Positions 1-9,518 of a stretch of 9,518 nucleotides of DNA are shown piece by piece (position 1 is the stretch's first letter; the number at the start of each line of letters is the position of its first letter). This DNA is from Ruminococcus sp. UNK.MGS-30. Its GTDB lineage: Bacteria; Bacillota; Clostridia; Oscillospirales; Ruminococcaceae. The stretch is taken from the NCBI GenBank assembly GCA_000980705.1, contig LBCK01000012.1:1-9518 (forward strand), read 5' to 3'. Position numbers and translations under genes: made by a program. The notes under the pieces were generated by a model, which ran no database searches, had not been told where the DNA came from, and saw only the letters and a list, made by a program, of their open reading frames with translations.

Positions 1-10
1 TGTTTGTCAT
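1..10 (-). CDS. 5' end of a divergent gene leaving the window
   Basis: Read on the minus strand, an ATG at 10-8 begins Met-Thr-Asn and runs off the window edge. A perfect GGAGG ribosome site lies at 20-16, five bases before the ATG, and a strong minus-strand promoter sits at 78-50. Together these make a genuine translation start likely, although only three codons are visible. Nothing can be said about the product. Confidence 0.5.
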
Positions 11-49
11 TTTTTCCTCCTTGGTTTTTCTTCTTTCGTGTTTTCTTTT

Positions 50-78
50 ATTATACTACTTTTCTTTTCCCTTGTCTA
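50..78 (-). promoter_or_regulatory. Sigma-A type promoter for the divergent left-edge gene
   Basis: On the minus strand TAGACA (78-73, five of six matches to TTGACA) is followed after exactly 17 bases by a perfect TATAAT (55-50). The start of transcription would be near 43, giving a leader of about 33 bases before the ATG at 10. The promoter abuts the truncated front end of the leucine-rich-repeat remnant, so the hydrophobic-looking translation of 38-91 on the plus strand is probably promoter DNA rather than a signal peptide. Confidence 0.6.
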
Positions 79-91
79 CTTTTTTAGTATA

Positions 92-587
92 ACACCAATT
101 CCGAACAGCGTGACCAGCATTGAATATGAGGTATTCTCTGACTGTACAAGCCTGACCAGCATCACCATTCCGGATGGAGTGACCAGCATTGGAAATAGTG
201 CATTTCGCTGTTGTAGAAATCTGACTGCTCTCACACTTCCGAACAGTGTGACCAATATCGAAGAATACGCATTTCTTTATTGCGAAAGCTTGACCGACAT
301 CACAATTTCAAATTGTGTAACCCGGATTGGCAGGGAAGCATTTTCTAATTGTAAAAGTATTAAAATTGCTGTTTCTGATAAGAGGCATGAAAGCACTAAT
401 CGACAGCGGCAATCTGGAGCTGATTCAGGTGCTTCTGGAAAAGACCGACTTTGTTACCAAGAAGAACATTGATAAATTTATCCAGTACGCCATTGACACC
501 AAGCAGCAGGAGATCTATCTGACCTTGATTCACTATAAGGACGAGATCGGGGCGTATACAGATATTTCCAAGAAGTTCCGGCTGTAA
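92..587 (+). pseudogene. BspA-type leucine-rich-repeat protein remnant, truncated and frame-disrupted
   Basis: About 3.8 leucine-rich repeats of exactly 23 residues are encoded at 107-175, 176-244, 245-313 and 314 to about 372. They follow the LRR_5 pattern SVTSIx3AFxxCxxLTxITIPN. The repeat frame then reads into a polar tail that looks like out-of-frame sequence and stops at 472. Another frame, from about 385 to the stop at 587, encodes KALIDSGNLELIQVLLEKTD and ends ISKKFRL, an ankyrin-like helical tail of the sort I associate with such Ruminococcus proteins. I therefore read this as one gene with a frame change or deletion between about 360 and 390. The front end is also missing: upstream of 92 there is only T-rich DNA carrying the opposite-strand promoter. 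BspA repeats usually mediate surface or protein-protein binding, but no function is likely to remain. The stop lies 24 bases before the ATPase gene, so the two probably formed one operon. Confidence 0.6.
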
Positions 588-611
588 TAGAGCAGAAAGG
601 GAAGTATAACC

Positions 612-2107
612 ATGAATATTCATGAAGCGAAAGAGCAAATCAAAAACGCAGTGACTGCTTATCTGACAAAGGATGATCTGGGACGCTATGTGATTCCGCC
701 GCAGAAACAGCGTCCGATCTTTCTCATGGGGCCTCCCGGTGTGGGAAAAACTGCCATTATGGAACAGGTCGCCTCGGAATTGGGCATCGGTTTGCTGTCC
801 TATTCCATGACGCATCACACCAGACAGTCCGCATTGGGACTGCCGCTCATCAAGCATGTGAACTATCAGGGAGCGAGTACGATGTTTCCGAATATACCAT
901 GAGTGAGATCATCTCTTCCGTCTATGAACTGATGGAAAACACCGGCATTCAAAACGGTATTCTGTTTCTCGACGAGATCAACTGCGTTTCGGAGACACTG
1001 ACTCCGATCATGCTGCAATTCCTGCAGTATAAAGTGTTCGGCAGACACGAAGTCCCGGCTGGCTGGATCGTTGTCACTGCCGGAAATCCACCGGAATATA
1101 ACCGCTCTGTCCGGGAGTTTGACATTGCCACATGGGACAGACTGAAACGAGTAGATGTGGAACCGGATTTTGCGGTGTGGAAGGAGTTCGCATATCTGAA
1201 TGGGGTGCATTCCTCGATTCTGACCTATCTGGAAATCAAAAAGGGAAATTTCTATAAGGTGGAAACTACGGTGGACGGCAAGCGTTTTGTGACCGCCAGA
1301 GGTTGGGATGATTTGAGTCAGATGATCCACCTGTATGAACAGCACAAGATTCCCGTCGATCAGAAACTGGTGGAACAATACATTCAGAATCCGGAAATTG
1401 CACAGGATTTCGCCATTTACTATGACTTGTACAACAAGTACAAAAGCGACTATCAGATCAAAGACATTCTGGCAGGTACAGCAAGCACCGATATTCAGGA
1501 GCGTGCCAAAAGAGCAAAGTTTGATGAGCGTTTTTCTCTGGTGGGACTGCTGCTGGATGCTGTGATGGGTGCCATGCGGGAGTCTACGGAAGAAGAGGAC
1601 GTATTGGAAGAATTGGTCAAGACGCTGCGTGTGTTCAAGCGGGAATCCAAGACCGAGGACGGCGCAGCGCTGCTGAAAAAATACATCCGGAACAACCGAA
1701 AAGAACTGAACGCCGGCATTCGGGCCAAAAGTCTTTCTGAGGCACAGCAGAAACAAAAGCTGCAAGTGATGCGGATTCTGGAGGAGCAGAGCAAACTGGT
1801 GCAGTCTGATCCGGAGCAGGCAGCTTTTGCACTGGTGAAAAAGGATTTCGATAATCGGTTGAAGGCATTCCAAAAGCGAAGCGACACACTGTCGGAACAG
1901 GTGCGGCATATGTTTGCGTTTTGTGATACGGTCTTTCCCGATGGACAGGAGCAGCTGATCCTGGTGACAGAACTGACGGCGAACCCGTATAGCGCAAGAT
2001 TCCTGGGAGAACACAAGGTCGATGCATATTTTGTCCACGATAAGGAATTGATGTTCCATCAGAGACAGCTGGAACTGAACCAGGAAATTGCGAATCTGGA
2101 GCTTTAA
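612..2107 (+). pseudogene. MoxR-like AAA+ ATPase with a one-base frameshift
   Basis: Two frames together encode one AAA+ ATPase. The first (612-902) carries Walker A, GPPGVGKT, at residues 40-47 (729-752) and then the conserved SMTHHTRQSALGLPLIKH stretch. The second, open from 869 to 2107, resumes with GSEYDVSEYTMSEI, then Walker B ILFLDEIN, a sensor-1 TAGNPPEYN, a likely arginine-finger region DRLKR and a long helical C-terminal part. Restoring one G in the GGG run at 869-871 joins the frames into a protein of about 498 residues. The ATG at 899 is an internal Met codon, not a plausible independent start. The ribosome site AAAGGGA (596-602) sits nine bases before ATG 612. MoxR-type ATPases act as chaperone-like remodelers, usually with a VWA-domain partner, which is absent here. 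The break may be a real mutation or an assembly error; I see no canonical slippery heptamer at the junction. Confidence 0.75.
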
Positions 2108-2164
2108 GAGAATTTTCTGCATATGTTGTTTAAAATTGTAGTATACAAATCCAATCAAAACTAC

Positions 2165-2206
2165 AAAAGCACACAGGGCATTTCAAAATAGCTTTGTGTG
2201 CTTTTT
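2165..2206 (+). terminator. Rho-independent terminator after the ATPase gene
   Basis: A 15-base arm (2165-2179) pairs with 2191-2205 across an 11-base loop, using G-T wobble near the loop, and the right arm ends in five Ts. A-rich arm ends give it partly bidirectional character. The surrounding 53 bases (2154-2206) match 5049-5101 at 48 positions, and all five differences are transitions. Confidence 0.85.
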
Positions 2207-2352
2207 CTTGTAAATTTTTTTAGAACAGACAGACGTATGTCTTACAGTATGAGTATAATGAAGTCAAAGATAAAATGAGAAGTCTGACGAACTTAAATAA
2301 AATCATAAGATTTCTGCTTTCGGCGTTTTTTTATAAATATTATAATAAAAAA

Positions 2353-2381
2353 TTGACAAAAAAGAGATTGTGTGGTATACT
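2353..2381 (+). promoter_or_regulatory. Near-consensus extended -10 promoter of the middle cassette
   Basis: A perfect TTGACA at 2353-2358 is followed by 17 bases and TATACT at 2376-2381, which is preceded by TGG, an extended -10 (TGn) element. Transcription would begin near 2388, about 40 bases before the first gene. No operator-like palindrome overlaps the boxes, so the promoter looks constitutive and strong. Confidence 0.8.
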
Positions 2382-2426
2382 TATAGATACATAGTATTTA
2401 CCAAATGGTTGAATTCATAAGAGAGG

Positions 2427-3728
2427 ATGGGATATCTTTTGGAAGGACTGATAAACAAGCAAACAGACACCTCTGTTATAAGATATCGTGATAAATGCGA
2501 TAAATATGATTACTTAATTGCGATTGGAACAGGAGCAATTGCAGGAATCGTAGATATTATGTTTGTAGGTTCTCCGACGGACAGCAAGCTAGGAAAATGG
2601 ACTGATGCACAGGTAGATAACTGTGTAAAAGCATTTGCTAAAACAAGTGGCTGGAGTCCAAGAGCCGGAAAAGAAAATAGTACATCCAGTGCAATTGGAT
2701 TTCTTGAAAAAAAGTTTTCTGTAAATTATGATCAGCGGCACAGCGGCGATGTTGGCAGAGCTTTTTCCATGAGTGCCAAAAATCATCATATGAAATCTCT
2801 GGCACACTCTCCGGATGTTATAGGCTTGTTCTTCTCGATTCTTAGCCAATTCACGGGAATATCTGCTTTTCTGGCAAATGGCAAATTGATTACGATATCC
2901 TCGGAAACCATGGAACTGCAAGGCGGAAATTTTATCGCAAAAATTTTCTCTGGTGTAGTAAATTGGTTTGGACACCTTATGTCAGACATTGCAGGATCTT
3001 CTGGTGCAAGCGGTCGAGGAAGCGGAATTGTGATGCCGTTTTACGAGTTGTTCGGTTTGTGCCATTTTGGAAAATTCAATGCGAGCAGTAATCCACAAAA
3101 ACCAGTTTTGAATGATCTTGCCACAATCGCTACAAAAGCATTTGAATCTGGTTACGATGCTAGATTCGCTTTGACAATGGCAATTCCCGTTTTAATCAGC
3201 GATCTTTTAACACGTCTTGTTTGGGCGATTCGACACCACTTTCAATATCACAAGCCAATTCAAGAGTGCTTGCCAACAAAAAAACACGATGATCTGCGAG
3301 TGATGCTGATTGTCAGCAATGGTGTACTTTGCTTGTTCGATGGCGTAGATGCAGCGATTCGCTCTGGAGGAAACTGGGTTCTGTTCTTTACAAGACTAAA
3401 TTTGATTGCTTGGATACGTCTTATCATACTGGTTCTGAAAGAAGTCATGATTCGTTGTGGGATTGAAACACCGCTGGATGCTTTGAAACGAACCTATGAA
3501 GCAGTAACTGCATACATGCAAGAATTAGAAAAAATTGACATAGAAGCTTTCCGAAAAGAAACGGAACGGTATAATGCAATTGCAAGTGCGTTGAATCAAG
3601 CAAAATCGGAGACCGAATTAAATGCGGTGCTATATAAAACATTTGAGCAATTGAACATTCCGCTTCCTTGGAAAGGTGACTTTGACACTTTTATGAGCAA
3701 CAAAAAGAATCGTCTGGTGTTTGAATGA
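2427..3728 (+). CDS. Multi-pass membrane protein with YdjM-like His/Asp pattern
   Basis: The 433-residue product belongs to no family I can name with certainty. Hydrophobic stretches lie around residues 28-48, 129-150, 170-188, 246-268, 290-306 and 317-340, followed by a charged helical tail (350-410). Conserved-looking polar residues sit in or next to membrane segments: AGIVDIMFVG (39-48), NHHMKSLAHSPD (119-130), and GHLMSD (182-187) followed by a Gly/Ser-rich loop. This order (Asp; His...HS; GH...D) resembles YdjM/DUF457 membrane metal-dependent hydrolases, but this is my pattern reading, not a demonstrated homology. The start is uncertain. An in-frame stop at 2418-2420 bars anything earlier; ATG 2427 directly abuts GAGAGG (2421-2426), which is too close, so TTG 2439 with 12-base spacing is a real alternative. 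The gene overlaps the next by four bases (ATGA), which implies translational coupling. Confidence 0.8.
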   Translation: MGYLLEGLINKQTDTSVIRYRDKCDKYDYLIAIGTGAIAGIVDIMFVGSPTDSKLGKWTDAQVDNCVKAFAKTSGWSPRAGKENSTSSAIGFLEKKFSVNYDQRHSGDVGRAFSMSAKNHHMKSLAHSPDVIGLFFSILSQFTGISAFLANGKLITISSETMELQGGNFIAKIFSGVVNWFGHLMSDIAGSSGASGRGSGIVMPFYELFGLCHFGKFNASSNPQKPVLNDLATIATKAFESGYDARFALTMAIPVLISDLLTRLVWAIRHHFQYHKPIQECLPTKKHDDLRVMLIVSNGVLCLFDGVDAAIRSGGNWVLFFTRLNLIAWIRLIILVLKEVMIRCGIETPLDALKRTYEAVTAYMQELEKIDIEAFRKETERYNAIASALNQAKSETELNAVLYKTFEQLNIPLPWKGDFDTFMSNKKNRLVFE

Positions 3729-3982
3729 TGTTTCTATGTGATAAATGTGGTTTGTGCTGTCGAAATCTAAATCTGTCAGAAATTTACGCTGATCTTGACA
3801 GAGGAGATGGAACTTGTAAATATCTACAAGGAAATCTTTGCAGCATTTATGAAAAAAGGCCTCTAAAATGCAGGGTCGATGAAAGCTATCATGTCTACTT
3901 TCAGTCAATCATGACACGAGAAGAGTACGAGAAACTGAACAGAGATATGTGTAACTTATTAAAAAAACAAAAGGAGAAGTGA
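3725..3982 (+). CDS. Small YkgJ-type cysteine-cluster protein
   Basis: This 85-residue protein begins with C5-x2-C8-x2-C11-C12, followed by C31, C39 and the RPLKCR motif with C49. That is the pattern of the YkgJ/YcgN family, annotated as binding zinc or an iron-sulfur cluster. Most family members are longer; this one is close to a minimal version, with a charged C-terminal helix (residues 65-85). It has no membrane segment or signal peptide and should be cytosolic. The ATG overlaps the upstream stop by four bases, and a second ATG follows at 3728. Its position between two membrane-type proteins suggests a metal or cluster-handling accessory, perhaps acting on the metal-site-like upstream protein; that link is inference. 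Confidence 0.85.
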   Translation: MMFLCDKCGLCCRNLNLSEIYADLDRGDGTCKYLQGNLCSIYEKRPLKCRVDESYHVYFQSIMTREEYEKLNRDMCNLLKKQKEK

Positions 3983-3987
3983 TTTGC

Positions 3988-5007
3988 ATGCCATTACCAA
4001 TCATTTTAGCAGTTGGTGCTGCCATTGCAGGAGCTAGCGGAGTCGGAGCCGGCATCAGTGGCGGTGTAAAAATGAAGAAAGCCAATGACAAGGTGAAAGA
4101 AGCAACAGAACGAGACAAAAATAACGTTGCCAGAATGGAAAGAAAGCAAAATGAAGCCACTTCTACAATGGACAGAGTGGGACGCAAGGAGCTTGAAATC
4201 TTAAAGAGTTTCGAGAAATTTCAGGATCTGATTGAAAGAATCCAAAACAGACCGGATTTCAAACAAATTCACCGAAACAATGTTACCATTCCCCAATACA
4301 ATCCGGAGGATATCAAAAATGCACACGTTGGAGCAGCAGTTTTGTTAGGTGGTCTTGGTGGTGCGGCAGTTGGTACAGCCGGCGGGTTTGCCGCAGCAGG
4401 GGCAACAACAGCTGCCGTCATGGCGTTAGGAACAGCCTCTACCGGCACTGCAATCGCCTCTTTGTCTGGTGCAGCAGCTACCAACGCTACTTTGGCAGCT
4501 TTGGGCGGCGGAGCCGTTGCAGCCGGAGGTGGTGGCATGGCACTTGGTACGGCGGTACTTGGTGGGGCTACACTTGGAATTGGTCTTTTGGTTGGCGGTA
4601 TCATTTTTAATTTTACAGGCAGAAAACTTTCCAACAAAGCGGATAAGGCTTGGGAGCAAATGCAGGAAAATGAAAAAGAAATTAACAAGGTCGTTGATTA
4701 TCTTAACAAGCTTTCGAGTGCAGCAAACGGATTTTATTCGAGTCTAAAAAGCGTAGAACGGATTTATAGAAGTCACTTGGAAAAATTGGAAGAAATCGAA
4801 AAGCATAAGGTAAACTGGAATGATTTTACGCCAGAAGAAAAGTTGTGCGTTGAAAATCTTGTGCTTGCTGTGGGTGTCCTTTATCAAATGTGCAAGGTAC
4901 AGCTTGTTCTAAAAACTTCTGGCAAACAATTGAATCAAATCAATTATTCTGAAATCAATAAGGCAAAGAAGAACGCAAGCGAATTCGTTAACTCAGTCAA
5001 CGATTGA
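3988..5007 (+). CDS. Glycine-zipper coiled-coil protein, possibly membrane-inserting
   Basis: The product (339 residues from ATG 3988) has an unusual layout. A short Gly/Ala-rich hydrophobic N-terminus (4-26) is followed by a charged coiled coil (28-90), a long Gly/Ala/Thr-rich hydrophobic block with GxxxG-like spacing (112-208), a second coiled coil (210-275) and a helical C-terminus. Hydrophobic zipper hairpins between long helices occur in alpha-pore-forming toxins and some membrane-remodelling proteins, but I do not recognise the family. A GTG at 3979 would add three residues and overlap the upstream stop, but it lies only three bases from AAGGAG (3970-3975). ATG 3988, at 12 bases, gives a natural MPLPIILAVG start and I prefer it. 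It is the last gene of the three-gene cassette and is followed by a terminator at 5060. Confidence 0.8.
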   Translation: MPLPIILAVGAAIAGASGVGAGISGGVKMKKANDKVKEATERDKNNVARMERKQNEATSTMDRVGRKELEILKSFEKFQDLIERIQNRPDFKQIHRNNVTIPQYNPEDIKNAHVGAAVLLGGLGGAAVGTAGGFAAAGATTAAVMALGTASTGTAIASLSGAAATNATLAALGGGAVAAGGGGMALGTAVLGGATLGIGLLVGGIIFNFTGRKLSNKADKAWEQMQENEKEINKVVDYLNKLSSAANGFYSSLKSVERIYRSHLEKLEEIEKHKVNWNDFTPEEKLCVENLVLAVGVLYQMCKVQLVLKTSGKQLNQINYSEINKAKKNASEFVNSVND

Positions 5008-5059
5008 AATCCATGAAGGATTGCAAATGAAAAGAGATAAGAAATAATATCAAAGCTGC

Positions 5060-5102
5060 AAAAGCACACGAGGCATTTCAAAATAGCCTTGTGTGCTTTT
5101 TT
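5060..5102 (+). terminator. Rho-independent terminator after the middle cassette
   Basis: The arm at 5060-5074 pairs with 5086-5100 over the same 11-base loop sequence (ATTTCAAAATA) found in the terminator at 2165, and it runs into six Ts (5097-5102). The T-to-C change at 5087 relative to the other copy preserves pairing by replacing a G-T wobble with G-C. Confidence 0.85.
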
Positions 5103-5147
5103 GTATACTACACACATTTAACATGTGCAGACAAGCTACAAAATAAT

Positions 5148-5176
5148 TTGCATAAAATCGGAAAATGTGCTATAAT
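5148..5176 (+). promoter_or_regulatory. Extended -10 promoter of the TIR/RyR operon
   Basis: A perfect TATAAT at 5171-5176 is preceded by TGC, an extended -10 element. TTGCAT at 5148-5153 lies exactly 17 bases upstream as a weak -35 box. Transcription should start near 5183. The weak -35 and strong extended -10 suggest moderate basal expression. Confidence 0.6.
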
Positions 5177-5184
5177 AAAAAATA

Positions 5185-5290
5185 GAGCGACACAAAGCGA
5201 GCAAAGTGTTCTATGTGATAAGGGTAAAATTTGTTTTTCAAGATACAGAAGAAAAGGAAAGGGCAAATTTATAACTGTATTTTGTGTCTC
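5185..5290 (+). promoter_or_regulatory. Leader with nested inverted repeats upstream of the TIR operon
   Basis: At the predicted 5' end of the transcript, GAG(CG)ACACAAA (5185-5196) can pair with TTTGTGTCTC (5281-5290), leaving a two-base bulge. Inside it, AAATTTG (5227-5233) can pair with CAAATTT (5264-5270), and the T-run after it faces an A/G-rich stretch. The ribosome site AGGGAG (5310-5315) lies just outside the fold. This could be a regulatory leader or a stability element. I do not recognise a known riboswitch, and the pairing is only moderately above chance for AT-rich DNA. Confidence 0.3.
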
Positions 5291-5326
5291 ATAAATTCAT
5301 ATTTTATATAGGGAGAAAAAATAAGT

Positions 5327-6331
5327 ATGTTAACCCAGATGCAAAGTAATTATGTTAGGAAAATGGTTTTTAATGCAAATCATGTTACGGATACGTTGTT
5401 TTGTCAAGATAATCTAAAATTTTCGAAAAAGCTGCGAAAAGCACCTGTTTTGCCGAATAGAAATGATGACATTATTTTGATTTATGATTCCACCGTATTT
5501 GGTTCCGCAAAAGAGGGAGCTGTTTTTTATCCCGAACTTGTGGTGTCAAAAGATATTTTAGAGAGTCCGAAAAAAATAGAGTATCAAAATATCTCTGAGA
5601 TTAGCTTGAAAATAAACAAAGATTCTGTGAAACTAATTGCCAAAGATATATTTGATAATGAACATGAACTATGGGGTGAGGTGGGATTCAAAAATAAAAA
5701 TGCTATTTTGATATCAAATGGCATTATTGAGATGATAAATTTCTTTTCCGGTTGTGATTTCAGTACTTTAACTTTGGATATGTTGACATCAGTTAAAGGA
5801 GCAGTGCAAACAGCCAATTCATCTGCCAAAAATATGAGAATTGCGCCGCAATCGAACAATGTACAAGCTAATATTTCTGCATCTTCACAGAGACCGGTTG
5901 CACCTCCAGTACAAAAAACGCCAAGTTTTATTTTCCCTCGAAACGGGAAAAAGGTATTCCTCTGCTTTGAAGAAAAGAACAGGAATCTGGCGATTTTACT
6001 GGGAAATACACTTCGAATGCAGAATGTGATATGCTTTATAGAACCTATGGTTACACGAGGCAGTGAGGACCGAATTCTAAGGGAACTTTTTGGATGCAGT
6101 ACATTTGTCATCTTGTATTCTCCTGATATCACAGAGGATCGGCGATGTAATATTAAAATCAGAAAAACATTTGAAAAAGGGGTCGATACAGTCGTATTGT
6201 TAAATAAAAATGATGTACTTTCTGCAGAATTCAGAGCAAGACCATATCCAGTAATTACATATCAAAATAACATATTGGAATGTTGCTACCAGTTAATTCC
6301 TTATTTGCAAAGAAAAATTATGGAGGGTTAA
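5327..6331 (+). CDS. PH-like domain fused to a degenerate TIR domain
   Basis: This 334-residue soluble protein starts at ATG 5327, 11 bases after AGGGAG. Residues about 20-145 look like a bacterial PH-like domain: a DDIILIYDSTVFGSAKEG block (47-64), a series of beta strands and a final helix ILISNGIIEMINFF (127-140). A low-complexity Ser/Asn/Pro/Gln linker (about 155-205) leads to a TIR-like domain (208-330) with FLCF (211-214) in place of the FISY box, the helix NLAILLGNTLR (220-230) and the VILYSPDITEDRRCNIK segment (261-277). In active TIR domains a glutamate sits three residues after this cysteine; here it is Lys277, so NADase activity is doubtful. It may act as an adaptor or sensor that assembles with the active TIR encoded six bases downstream. 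The domain assignments come from recalled sequence patterns. Confidence 0.8.
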   Translation: MLTQMQSNYVRKMVFNANHVTDTLFCQDNLKFSKKLRKAPVLPNRNDDIILIYDSTVFGSAKEGAVFYPELVVSKDILESPKKIEYQNISEISLKINKDSVKLIAKDIFDNEHELWGEVGFKNKNAILISNGIIEMINFFSGCDFSTLTLDMLTSVKGAVQTANSSAKNMRIAPQSNNVQANISASSQRPVAPPVQKTPSFIFPRNGKKVFLCFEEKNRNLAILLGNTLRMQNVICFIEPMVTRGSEDRILRELFGCSTFVILYSPDITEDRRCNIKIRKTFEKGVDTVVLLNKNDVLSAEFRARPYPVITYQNNILECCYQLIPYLQRKIMEG

Positions 6332-6337
6332 AGCAGG

Positions 6338-7345
6338 ATGGGTAAAAGAATTTTTATTAGTCATAAAACAGAGGATATTGAGAAAACAAGAAAAATTTGC
6401 AAAATTCTGAAAAAACACAGAATAAACTATTGGATGAGCAACGAACATATTTCTCTTTCTCAGGACTATGATAAGAGCATTAGTAAAACCATTGGTAATT
6501 CTGCAGCGGTTTTATTTTTACTTTCTAAGAAATCGCAGGATTCAAACAATTGTATTGATGAGTTGAATCAGGCAATTAAGCTAAACAAAGATGTGATTAT
6601 TTGGAAAGTCGAAGATGTTGAACCTAATTCTTTTCTCCAACTTGAATTGGGAAATGTCAATGTCATAGATGTCATGCCATTTCTGCAAAAGAAAAAGCCG
6701 CCGCATTATAAAGAATTCTGGGACAGTCGAACAAAAGAACTGATTGAGAATTATCATGTTAATAAACCAATTTATCCGTATTTTATTGGCGGAGTGTTCA
6801 TTGTACTTTTTATCCTGTTTGGTGCATGGGGCATCACAACACTGTATGATTGGGTATATGAAATTTTCGATGATGGATATTCTCAGACACAGATCGAATC
6901 TGGAAGTTCGGATGATGTTATGTGTTGGTCTGATTATATAGAATTTAATGTTGATAATTTCTTTATGGTGGATACGCAGATTATAGGATTGACCTATGAT
7001 GAACTGGGGAAAAAACTGGATAAAGATCTGCCGCCGTTGGAAGACGCATCTGAGGTTGTGGAAGGTGCTACACAATCAGAGATAGATTTTGAAGATGGAT
7101 CTTCTCTTTACTTTGTATTTGTTCATGATAAATTGTACCTTGTAAATTATACAATAACAAATGACTATAGCTTTAATAGTATTAGAAATGCAGCGAGCAA
7201 TTCATATGGGGATTATACAGAATCTGACGGTTATACTATCTGGGAACTAAATGATTGTGATTTTTATTTAGTAGAAGGTAAGCACACTGACAGCAGCGAT
7301 TATGGACTGATGCAAATATATATTTCGGAAGGAATTTTGACATGA
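6338..7345 (+). CDS. Membrane-anchored TIR domain protein, likely active
   Basis: The 335-residue product opens with a TIR domain (about 3-115): IFISHK (5-10), TrpMet at 32-33 in the box-2 loop, and LLSKKSQDSNNCIDELNQA (61-79). The last contains Cys72 and Glu75 in the C-x2-E spacing of the catalytic glutamate of NAD-cleaving TIR enzymes. A single hydrophobic helix follows (about 147-169). The preceding segment is Lys/Arg-rich and the following one acidic, so the TIR domain should be cytoplasmic and the last 165 residues outside. The outer domain looks beta-rich, with a GLTYDELGKKL segment (217-227) reminiscent of BLIP/SmpA-like folds (weak). The start has GGAGGG (6322-6327) ten bases upstream. 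The stop overlaps the next ATG by four bases. It may convert NAD into a signal nucleotide, with the outer domain sensing or tethering; both are inferred. Confidence 0.85.
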   Translation: MGKRIFISHKTEDIEKTRKICKILKKHRINYWMSNEHISLSQDYDKSISKTIGNSAAVLFLLSKKSQDSNNCIDELNQAIKLNKDVIIWKVEDVEPNSFLQLELGNVNVIDVMPFLQKKKPPHYKEFWDSRTKELIENYHVNKPIYPYFIGGVFIVLFILFGAWGITTLYDWVYEIFDDGYSQTQIESGSSDDVMCWSDYIEFNVDNFFMVDTQIIGLTYDELGKKLDKDLPPLEDASEVVEGATQSEIDFEDGSSLYFVFVHDKLYLVNYTITNDYSFNSIRNAASNSYGDYTESDGYTIWELNDCDFYLVEGKHTDSSDYGLMQIYISEGILT

Positions 7346-9393
7346 TTATTTGGAGTACCTGCTTAATAATAGCTGTGATAATGTTGTTGCTGTCTTTTTA
7401 TTATATTGCAAATGCTCGGAAAACGATGATCGAGTTCACGTTTATGTTTCTGATGTTTGCAGGATTTTTTGCATACCTGCCGCATTATCTGCAAAATTAT
7501 TCGCCTATCAATGCTATCGTTTGCGATGTTGTAAATCTGTTTCAGATCGTAACGATAAATTCAAACTCATATGAATCGTATCAGCCTGAGGTTTCAAATA
7601 CTTTTTTGTTTAATATAGCGCTGATTGTGCGTGCATGTGTTCATATTTTTAGCCCGATTCTCGGTGTAACTGCAATATATCGGTTTTTGAAAATCAAGTT
7701 TGAGAAAATCAAATCTGGATTTGTTATTTTTAATAAAAGAAAGATTTTTATTTTCTCAACCTACAATGAAAGAGCAGAGAAAATTGTTGAGGATATCACA
7801 TGCCGGGATAACGATAGAATTACTGTCATTTTCTATGAGACAGATAAGATTAACAATGAACTTGATCGAAAACTTGGGTTTAATAAGATTTCTCACATAA
7901 GCCATAAAATGAAGTTGGATGTTGCAGAAAATAAACTTCCGAAGTTCAACAGCAGTAAATGTGAGGTTTTCTTCTTTATTTTGAATGACGGCAATGAGAA
8001 TACTGAACTTGGTTTGCGTTTGGAAAAATATTACAGCGACTTGTGCGAAAAGAAAAGCACACTGAACAAGAACAATATTCACATAACTGTGTTTTCCAAT
8101 TATGCACTGACCGACGAAAAACTTATTGATTCTATTGAAACGTCTATGGATTTGCGGGTTGTTTATCCTGAACGTTTGCAGGTTTATAAACTGCTGAATG
8201 ATAAGCCGCTTTTTTCTAATATAAAGCCGGATGAGAAGAATATTTCTCTTCTGATACTTGATTATAATAACATGGCAAAAGAACTTCTCAGTGCAGCATT
8301 ATGCTGCGGACAGCTTGTAAATCATAAAATCAAAATCAATATCATCACTGAAAATTGTGCAAATGCAAAAAGTGAAACGGATTTCTCATGCCCGGAGCTT
8401 TTGAACAGCGGTTACAGTATTCACTTTTTTGAAGCAAATATACATAGTTCTTCACTGTTTAAGGTGATACAAGAAAATTGCATGGACACCACGTATATCG
8501 CTCTGTGTGGTGAGGATGATATTTCTAATATTCAACTTTCCATTGAATTGAGAAAGTTTTTTCTTACTTATGAAAACAACTTTTGTAATATGCCCCACAT
8601 CGCAGTACGGATTCAAAAAGATGAGACTGCAAAAATACTGGAAAAATCAGATTATAAACTTAATCCGTTTGGCTATGACAGCCTCATTTATAATTATAAC
8701 GAGATGATTGATCCGGAAATTGAGGCAATTGCAAAACGTGTGCATTTTGTATACTGTGCTGCAGATTCTGCAGAGCAGGCGATGGATAATCTTTGTTCAT
8801 ACTACAAATTTGAACGTGACAGAAAATCGAATCTGTCGATGGCACTTAGTATAAAATATAAACTTTGGGATATGGGATTTGAGATTTCTGAGTATCATGG
8901 AGACGGGACGCCGGACAATTGTGCATTTGAAAAATACATCCAGGGACTTGTTTCAGACAGAGATTCTGCTGTAAATCTGAAAGAAACGGCGTTGTATGCG
9001 TATGATGTAGCAGAGCATGAACGATGGATGGCTTATCAGCGAAGTGAAGGTGTGTGCGCAATGTCTGTACAACAGGCAGATGTGATAGCAAGAAAGAATC
9101 CGACGCTTCTGGAGCAAAAGAATGTAAATGGCGTATTACTTCCAAGAACGGGGAAATCCATTACGATGATGCTGCATATGGATATTTGCGATTTTGATGA
9201 TATTACAGTTCGAACCAATCAAATCAATGATTTGATTTCTGATGTAGAAACAATTATTCCGAAGAGAGATACGACTTTTAATGATGAACTGATTATTGTA
9301 TCGTTAAATAAAATTTTGTCATCGCAGGAATATGTCATGGCATCAGGCGGTAAGCAGTATGTTATCACGAAAATTACAGATGATGAAAATTGA
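7342..9393 (+). CDS. Membrane protein with TrkA/RCK-like Rossmann repeats and a RyR-like domain
   Basis: This 683-residue protein has membrane helices at about 2-23, 30-50 and 86-114, with a semi-hydrophobic loop (55-75) between the last two that could be a pore or re-entrant segment; no K+ filter (TVGYG) is present. A first Rossmann-like unit (133-260) starts KIFIFSTYNERAEKIVEDI, and a second (300-425) has SLLILDYNNMAKELL and later TTYIALCGEDDISNIQLSIE (383-402). Both resemble TrkA-N/RCK domains that have lost the GxGxxG glycines. The C-terminal part (545-620) contains VAEHERWMAYQRSEG (556-570) and a later LHMDICDFDDI, matching bacterial RyR-type domains (EHxRW). RCK domains gate channels in response to nucleotides or ions, and RyR-TrkA fusions have been predicted as effectors in nucleotide-centred conflict systems. 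Here it is probably the ligand-gated effector. GGAAGGA (7328-7334) lies seven bases before the ATG. Confidence 0.85.
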   Translation: MIIWSTCLIIAVIMLLLSFYYIANARKTMIEFTFMFLMFAGFFAYLPHYLQNYSPINAIVCDVVNLFQIVTINSNSYESYQPEVSNTFLFNIALIVRACVHIFSPILGVTAIYRFLKIKFEKIKSGFVIFNKRKIFIFSTYNERAEKIVEDITCRDNDRITVIFYETDKINNELDRKLGFNKISHISHKMKLDVAENKLPKFNSSKCEVFFFILNDGNENTELGLRLEKYYSDLCEKKSTLNKNNIHITVFSNYALTDEKLIDSIETSMDLRVVYPERLQVYKLLNDKPLFSNIKPDEKNISLLILDYNNMAKELLSAALCCGQLVNHKIKINIITENCANAKSETDFSCPELLNSGYSIHFFEANIHSSSLFKVIQENCMDTTYIALCGEDDISNIQLSIELRKFFLTYENNFCNMPHIAVRIQKDETAKILEKSDYKLNPFGYDSLIYNYNEMIDPEIEAIAKRVHFVYCAADSAEQAMDNLCSYYKFERDRKSNLSMALSIKYKLWDMGFEISEYHGDGTPDNCAFEKYIQGLVSDRDSAVNLKETALYAYDVAEHERWMAYQRSEGVCAMSVQQADVIARKNPTLLEQKNVNGVLLPRTGKSITMMLHMDICDFDDITVRTNQINDLISDVETIIPKRDTTFNDELIIVSLNKILSSQEYVMASGGKQYVITKITDDEN

Positions 9394-9440
9394 TAAAGTT
9401 AACTATGAGATAATTCTAGGGAAACGCTGAACAAAAGCAC

Positions 9441-9512
9441 AGTTGAAAAAGCAAATCGATAATTACGACTAAAACAGCAGTATTTTGACTAAAATACTGC
9501 TGTTTTTCAACT
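9441..9512. repeat. Outer inverted repeat around the operon terminator
   Basis: AGTTGAAAAA (9441-9450) is the exact reverse complement of TTTTTCAACT (9503-9512). The two arms enclose the perfect terminator hairpin and share its last T-run, so outer and inner stems compete only for the final four pairs. The inner element also has a GACTAAAA direct repeat at 9467 and 9487. Confidence 0.5.
9471..9507 (+). terminator. Perfect 16-bp hairpin terminator of the TIR/RyR operon
   Basis: Arms 9471-9486 and 9491-9506 are perfectly complementary around a four-base GACT loop, and the right arm ends in five Ts (9503-9507). The left arm starts with four As, so it could terminate transcription from both directions. 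It lies 78 bases after the stop of the RyR-domain gene, with nothing recognisable in between. Confidence 0.85.
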
Positions 9513-9518
9513 TTTCAA

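Follow-up and report, generated by a model that had tools for sequence, protein, structure and literature searches.

Two TIR proteins encoded with an RCK-RyR membrane protein in a Ruminococcus genome: a possible Thoeris-like system

Three adjacent genes, here called A, B and C, lie towards the end of a 9,518-nucleotide stretch of DNA from Ruminococcus sp. UNK.MGS-30 (contig LBCK01000012.1, positions 1 to 9,518 of the forward strand; the whole stretch is called the window below). A and B encode TIR-domain proteins, and C a predicted membrane protein with tandem RCK-like domains and a tail related, by way of other members of its family, to RyR repeats. There seems to be about an even chance that the three form a Thoeris-like system, in which a signal made by a TIR enzyme opens an RCK channel through the RyR-like receptor in C. 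Their main features are as follows.

5327..6331, + strand: gene A, 334 residues; BnzA-like N-terminal stretch and degenerate TIR domain; predicted sensor partner
5459..5632, + strand: A residues 45-102, in common with BnzA of the Bunzi system (PADLOC PDLC03833, E = 1.8e-10, profile positions 43-95 of 544)
5954..6175, + strand: A residues 210-283, degenerate TIR domain (TIR_2, E = 2.4e-4), with Lys in the catalytic Glu column
6338..7345, + strand: gene B, 335 residues; TIR domain, one membrane helix, and a C-terminal domain predicted to lie outside
6350..6673, + strand: B residues 5-112, TIR domain (TIR_2, E = 9.9e-17); Glu75 codon at 6560-6562
6782..6838, + strand: B residues 149-167, membrane helix (hydropathy 2.31)
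7342..9393, + strand: gene C, 683 residues; membrane region, tandem RCK, RyR-like tail; predicted channel effector
7342..7677, + strand: C residues 1-112, hydrophobic peaks at 1-19, 28-46, 54-72 (the weakest) and 94-112 (hydropathy)
7510..7590, + strand: C residues 57-83, candidate pore loop and best conserved stretch of C
7741..8721, + strand: C residues 134-460, tandem RCK-like domains, from fold comparison of a predicted model
8974..9321, + strand: C residues 545-660, RyR-like tail (E = 1e-9 for the family profile against solved RyR repeats)
9016-9018, 9025-9027, 9175-9177 and 9268-9270, + strand: codons of tail residues H559, W562, H612 and D643

The nearest relatives of C are P0002 (44%), P0003 (42%; named Porcipelethomonas sp.) and one encoded at a locus of an uncultured Ruminococcus (L001, 45%; its genome is G001). 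Apart from window proteins or near-identical copies, protein database searches returned only P0002 and P0003; some of these searches scored only the 7997 candidates sharing most words, so that relatives may be missed. A three-row profile picked out relatives of C in 34 genomes among the 394 sampled from the order to which G001 belongs, and a second profile did so in 2 of 388 genomes of a phylum sample (E = 1e-8), one of them G001. The genus and family samples gave 7 of 125 and 6 of 148, G001 being counted in both. No relative of A, B or C was found in viral contigs or plasmids, nor any relative of C, the only query, in phages.

The 34 genomes contain 130 TIR_2 matches, spread over 32 of them. 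In nine a TIR gene lies within 5 kb of the C relative, on the same strand in eight, against 0.76 expected if the TIR matches were evenly spread (Poisson P = 1.2e-7, an optimistic value, as the null ignores clustering of defence genes and two of the genomes, G314 and G350, share the same spacing). The family sample adds a further pair (L089). The pairing of TIR with an RCK-RyR effector proposed in an earlier reading of this DNA from its letters alone (the sequence-only reading below) thus recurs in other genomes. The TIR partners vary: they carry leucine-rich repeats (L037, L040), BspA-type leucine-rich repeats (L062), an FHA domain (L035) or RHS or MORN-like repeats (L050, L054), one is long (L047), and one has a TPR frame alongside (L001). 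At this last locus (603-2682), the TPR frame and a TIR frame broken by a stop stand directly upstream of an intact C relative. The family of C relatives extends beyond its TIR-linked form.

The TIR domains of A and B were aligned with seven more, one per locus, from loci that encode C relatives. Glu occupies the catalytic column in eight of these nine domains, A alone having Lys; the match of A to TIR_2, at 22 bits, is below the 28-bit cut-off. The sequence-only reading had named Glu75 of B as catalytic, and it does fall in this column. Judging from these residues, the TIR of A is probably dead, and B likely makes an NAD-derived signal; a pair of two active TIR enzymes was rejected on account of the Lys of A. 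Lacking the catalytic Glu, A would probably act as the sensor and B as the synthase, a division modelled on staphylococcal ThsB1 and ThsB2. In that Thoeris system ThsB1 binds the capsid protein of the phage and then brings in ThsB2. Immunity is lost when F6 and E81 of ThsB2 are mutated, but not when the matching ThsB1 residues are (excerpts of PMC11312562).

Charged residues around the single helix of B (three basic and two acidic just before it, none basic and four acidic just after) predict a cytosolic TIR and a C-terminal domain outside the cell. The latter (window 6839-7342) has no significant Pfam match; so placed, it could be an envelope sensor.

By itself, C has no significant match in Pfam, PADLOC or NCBIfam, RCK and RyR included. 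A low-confidence model of it matches tandem RCK gating rings by Foldseek and VIA-align, in a list of fold matches covering chiefly residues 134-456. Ahead of these domains, residues 57-83 are invariant at 22 of 27 positions in four proteins (14 in the next best non-overlapping stretch) and sit between membrane helices; topology, charges and conservation fit a pore.

Kinship of the tail to RyR repeats comes from profiles. That of a 20-protein family alignment (window C, P0002, P0003, L001 and 16 others) matches solved RyR repeats at E = 1e-9, and one of ten relatives, with the window left out, at 2.5e-15, human RyR3 entries following at 0.007-0.008. Singly, five of the 20 proteins match PF02026 (RyR; E = 0.01, best 5.5e-6), and one of the 20 matches TrkA_N. 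Against six free-standing RyR genes, a 12-relative profile scores 59.6 (probability 97), and 100 column-shuffled versions score no higher than 18.2. For C, then, the RCK and RyR assignments of the sequence-only reading were both recovered, by way of relatives and fold comparison and not from a Pfam match of its own.

According to a 2026 preprint, phage RyR repeats bind and cleave cyclic ADP-ribose isomers as a counter-defence; the RyR repeat of one such protein, RyDEP, has residues H75, W78, H100 and D117 (excerpts of PMC13232231). The tail of C shows His, Trp, His and Asp in the same order. In the family alignment H612 and D643 are invariant (20 of 20), although D643 is assigned across an insertion, with D648 as another candidate, and H559 and W562 are conserved in at least 90%. 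Of 44 open frames of 450 residues or more, 41 showed EHxxW with an H-x-x-L-like element after it in a loose motif scan; two of the frames, L021 and L048, represent the same gene. In L041 the free-standing RyR gene carries H30, W33, H55 and D72, with the same spacings as in the excerpted description of RyDEP, and its H30, W33 and D72 are invariant in six of six such genes.

Free-standing RyR genes, of about 94 residues, adjoin RCK-RyR genes or lie within a few genes of them (L041, L052, L053, L056, L059, L084, L035); that of L041 matches PF02026 at 3.6e-38. At five loci (L085, L086, L087, L088 and L048) RCK-RyR forms part of proteins of 1360-1412 residues with N-terminal parts that look kinase-like by eye, including an HRDIKP/HGDIKP-type motif in L085-L087.

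A Thoeris-like pathway might then run as follows. A, its own TIR probably dead, would sense phage and recruit or switch on B. The membrane-anchored B would turn NAD into an ADP-ribose-type signal, which the RyR-like tail of C would bind. Binding would open the predicted RCK-gated channel, its pore perhaps lined by residues 57-83, and the open channel would upset ion gradients and so abort the infection. The narrower identification of C as a cyclic-ADP-ribose-gated bacterial RCK channel, with the RyR repeat as receptor for the TIR-made signal, is put forward tentatively, as something we lean somewhat against.

Like A-B-C, the ThsB1/ThsB2 and ThsA cluster (so far as the excerpts of its description go) has two TIR proteins, one needing its catalytic residues, and a third protein as candidate effector, and B has the TIR domain with catalytic Glu expected in Thoeris; here, however, C has no ThsA-type domain, A has a BnzA-like stretch and B is membrane-anchored. 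The known Thoeris effector domains (Sir2, SLOG, macro, caspase-like) are absent from C in Pfam, NCBIfam and PADLOC, and C matches no Thoeris model of PADLOC or of a second curated set. Against curated models B reaches 11 bits for Thoeris III ThcB4 (cut-off 220), 16 bits for PADLOC ThsB and 19.4 for ThsB_TIR (cut-off 21.2). RCK-gated channels (plant CASTOR/DMI1, GsuK, Slo1, TrkA rings; excerpts of PMC6697748) share with C a membrane region followed by tandem RCK, without its added RyR-like tail. RyDEP, as excerpted, comes from phage, is small and soluble, and acts by cleaving or sequestering the signal, whereas C, from a bacterium, is a membrane protein that combines RCK domains with a divergent tail holding a long insertion. 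A TIR system with an RCK or RyR effector was found in none of the open-licence papers searched; a preprint on TIR systems outside that scope (Yirmiya et al., 2025) may already contain it.

A number of results weigh against the proposed pathway. The exact A-B-C trio was not found again in the genome samples: A matched in none of 388 genomes, and B in three (E = 1e-10), over residues 5-114 only, which is its TIR domain, so that the conservation of the three together supposed by the sequence-only reading was not borne out. No TIR match lies within 5 kb of the C relative in 25 of the 34 genomes, where some contigs are shorter than 5 kb, and some C relatives have a free-standing RyR gene as neighbour or form fusions with kinase-like sequence. 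Window C, P0002, P0003 and L001 have no RyR match, even at E = 1 or 5, and the profile of this close group of four gives a probability of 0.2 against RyR. It gives 97.7 against the C relatives, so the RyR kinship of window C runs through those relatives. Both predicted models are poor (predicted local distance difference test scores of 54.9 and 56.5), and a fold search with the RyR region alone (the 56.5 model) gave no match at E = 0.001 or better. A long insertion separates W562 from H612, His is found at the H100-like position (55 in L041) in one of the six free-standing RyR genes, and the pore candidate shows no recognised filter motif.

As a second possibility, B might act directly, by NAD consumption or as a scaffold, with C as a membrane sensor or regulator that tunes the TIR response, its RCK domains reading nucleotides or ions and its tail ADP-ribose. 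B is itself membrane-bound, and solved RCK rings do bind nucleotides or ions, the titles of the matched structures including ATP, ADP, NAD and Ca forms. A repeat of the RyR kind may itself be catalytic: RyDEP cleaves its signal, and its catalytic pair H75/D117 (in the excerpts of PMC13232231) has counterparts in C, which might therefore quench a signal. We consider this unlikely, though worth keeping in view, since membrane helices followed by tandem RCK, with the conserved 57-83 stretch, have the look of an output channel, and C relatives are linked with TIR proteins of several sorts, as expected if the effector is shared.

As a third, C could be an ion-homeostasis or stress channel, or a regulator, of Oscillospirales-type bacteria, sharing a transcription unit with TIR genes by chance and belonging to no dedicated immune pathway. 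The neighbours of C relatives are indeed of several kinds, most of the genomes have no TIR gene nearby, and in some loci two transport-like genes (recognised by eye) adjoin the relative. The patchy spread of the family (34 of 394 genomes in the order, 2 of 388 in the phylum) speaks against it, as do the defence-like genes upstream of A and the same-strand linkage to TIR genes, and it appears improbable.

The A-B-C unit and its surroundings bear on a final alternative. Further features of the window are:

5057..5105: terminator-like hairpin at the end of the upstream unit (-24.4 kcal/mol, z -5.2)
5147..5176, + strand: promoter-like site, TTTGCA-18-TATAAT with TG ahead of TATAAT (10/12 match)
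9471..9506, + strand: terminator-like hairpin (-18.8 kcal/mol, z -7.9; 0 of 200 shuffles as good)

The tight coupling of the three genes described in the sequence-only reading is reproduced by their coordinates: A and B are 6 bases apart, B and C overlap by 4 bases, and all three starts are preceded by a purine-rich stretch. Its single terminator agrees with the strong hairpin at 9471-9506 that closes the unit, although this is absent from the list of a consensus terminator scan. Its promoter is less secure: the match at 5147-5176 is plausible, but those of this 10/12 grade number 28 in the window against a shuffle mean of 26.2, and so are not above chance. Rfam has no match in the window.

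The upstream genes comprise a BnzB-like gene (2427-3728, E = 2.4e-130), a CxxCxxCC gene (E = 3.2e-6) and a PDC-M09A/LeoBC-like gene (E = 8.7e-34); these genes are defence-like. One could suppose that these and A make up one Bunzi-like system, with B and C as add-ons, given the nearby BnzB-like gene and the 58 residues that A has in common with BnzA. The hairpin at 5057-5105, however, separates them from A-B-C as a different transcription unit, the rest of A is TIR-like, its BnzA match covers just 53 of 544 profile positions, and the BnzB/LeoBC-like pair occurs at L095 and L099, and fused at L096 and L097, in genomes where the three-row profile found no C relative and with no match to A beside the pair; this supposition is very improbable, and the idea of A, B, C and BnzB as a single Bunzi variant was rejected on the hairpin and on these occurrences of the pair.

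Window 2427-5007 is a compact unit flanked by hairpins that are almost identical (about 2162-2212 and 5057-5105), an arrangement suggestive of modules set between copies of one terminator. Further upstream, an AAA/MoxR-like P-loop frame (612-902) gives way to a 402-residue one in another reading frame (899-2107), and 612-2107 may be one interrupted gene; a frame at 38-472, possibly a fragment, resembles BspA-type leucine-rich repeats by eye.

TIR signalling has a central place in the immunity of bacteria, and every new effector is another way for a nucleotide signal to stop the cell. A TIR-linked host membrane protein with a RyR-related repeat would be a host-side receptor, and would make RyR gating of a channel by cyclic ADP-ribose isomers directly testable. 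If C is indeed a cyclic-ADP-ribose-gated channel, a channel would join the effectors of TIR systems, and the disputed coupling of cyclic ADP-ribose to RyR in animals would gain a bacterial immune counterpart.

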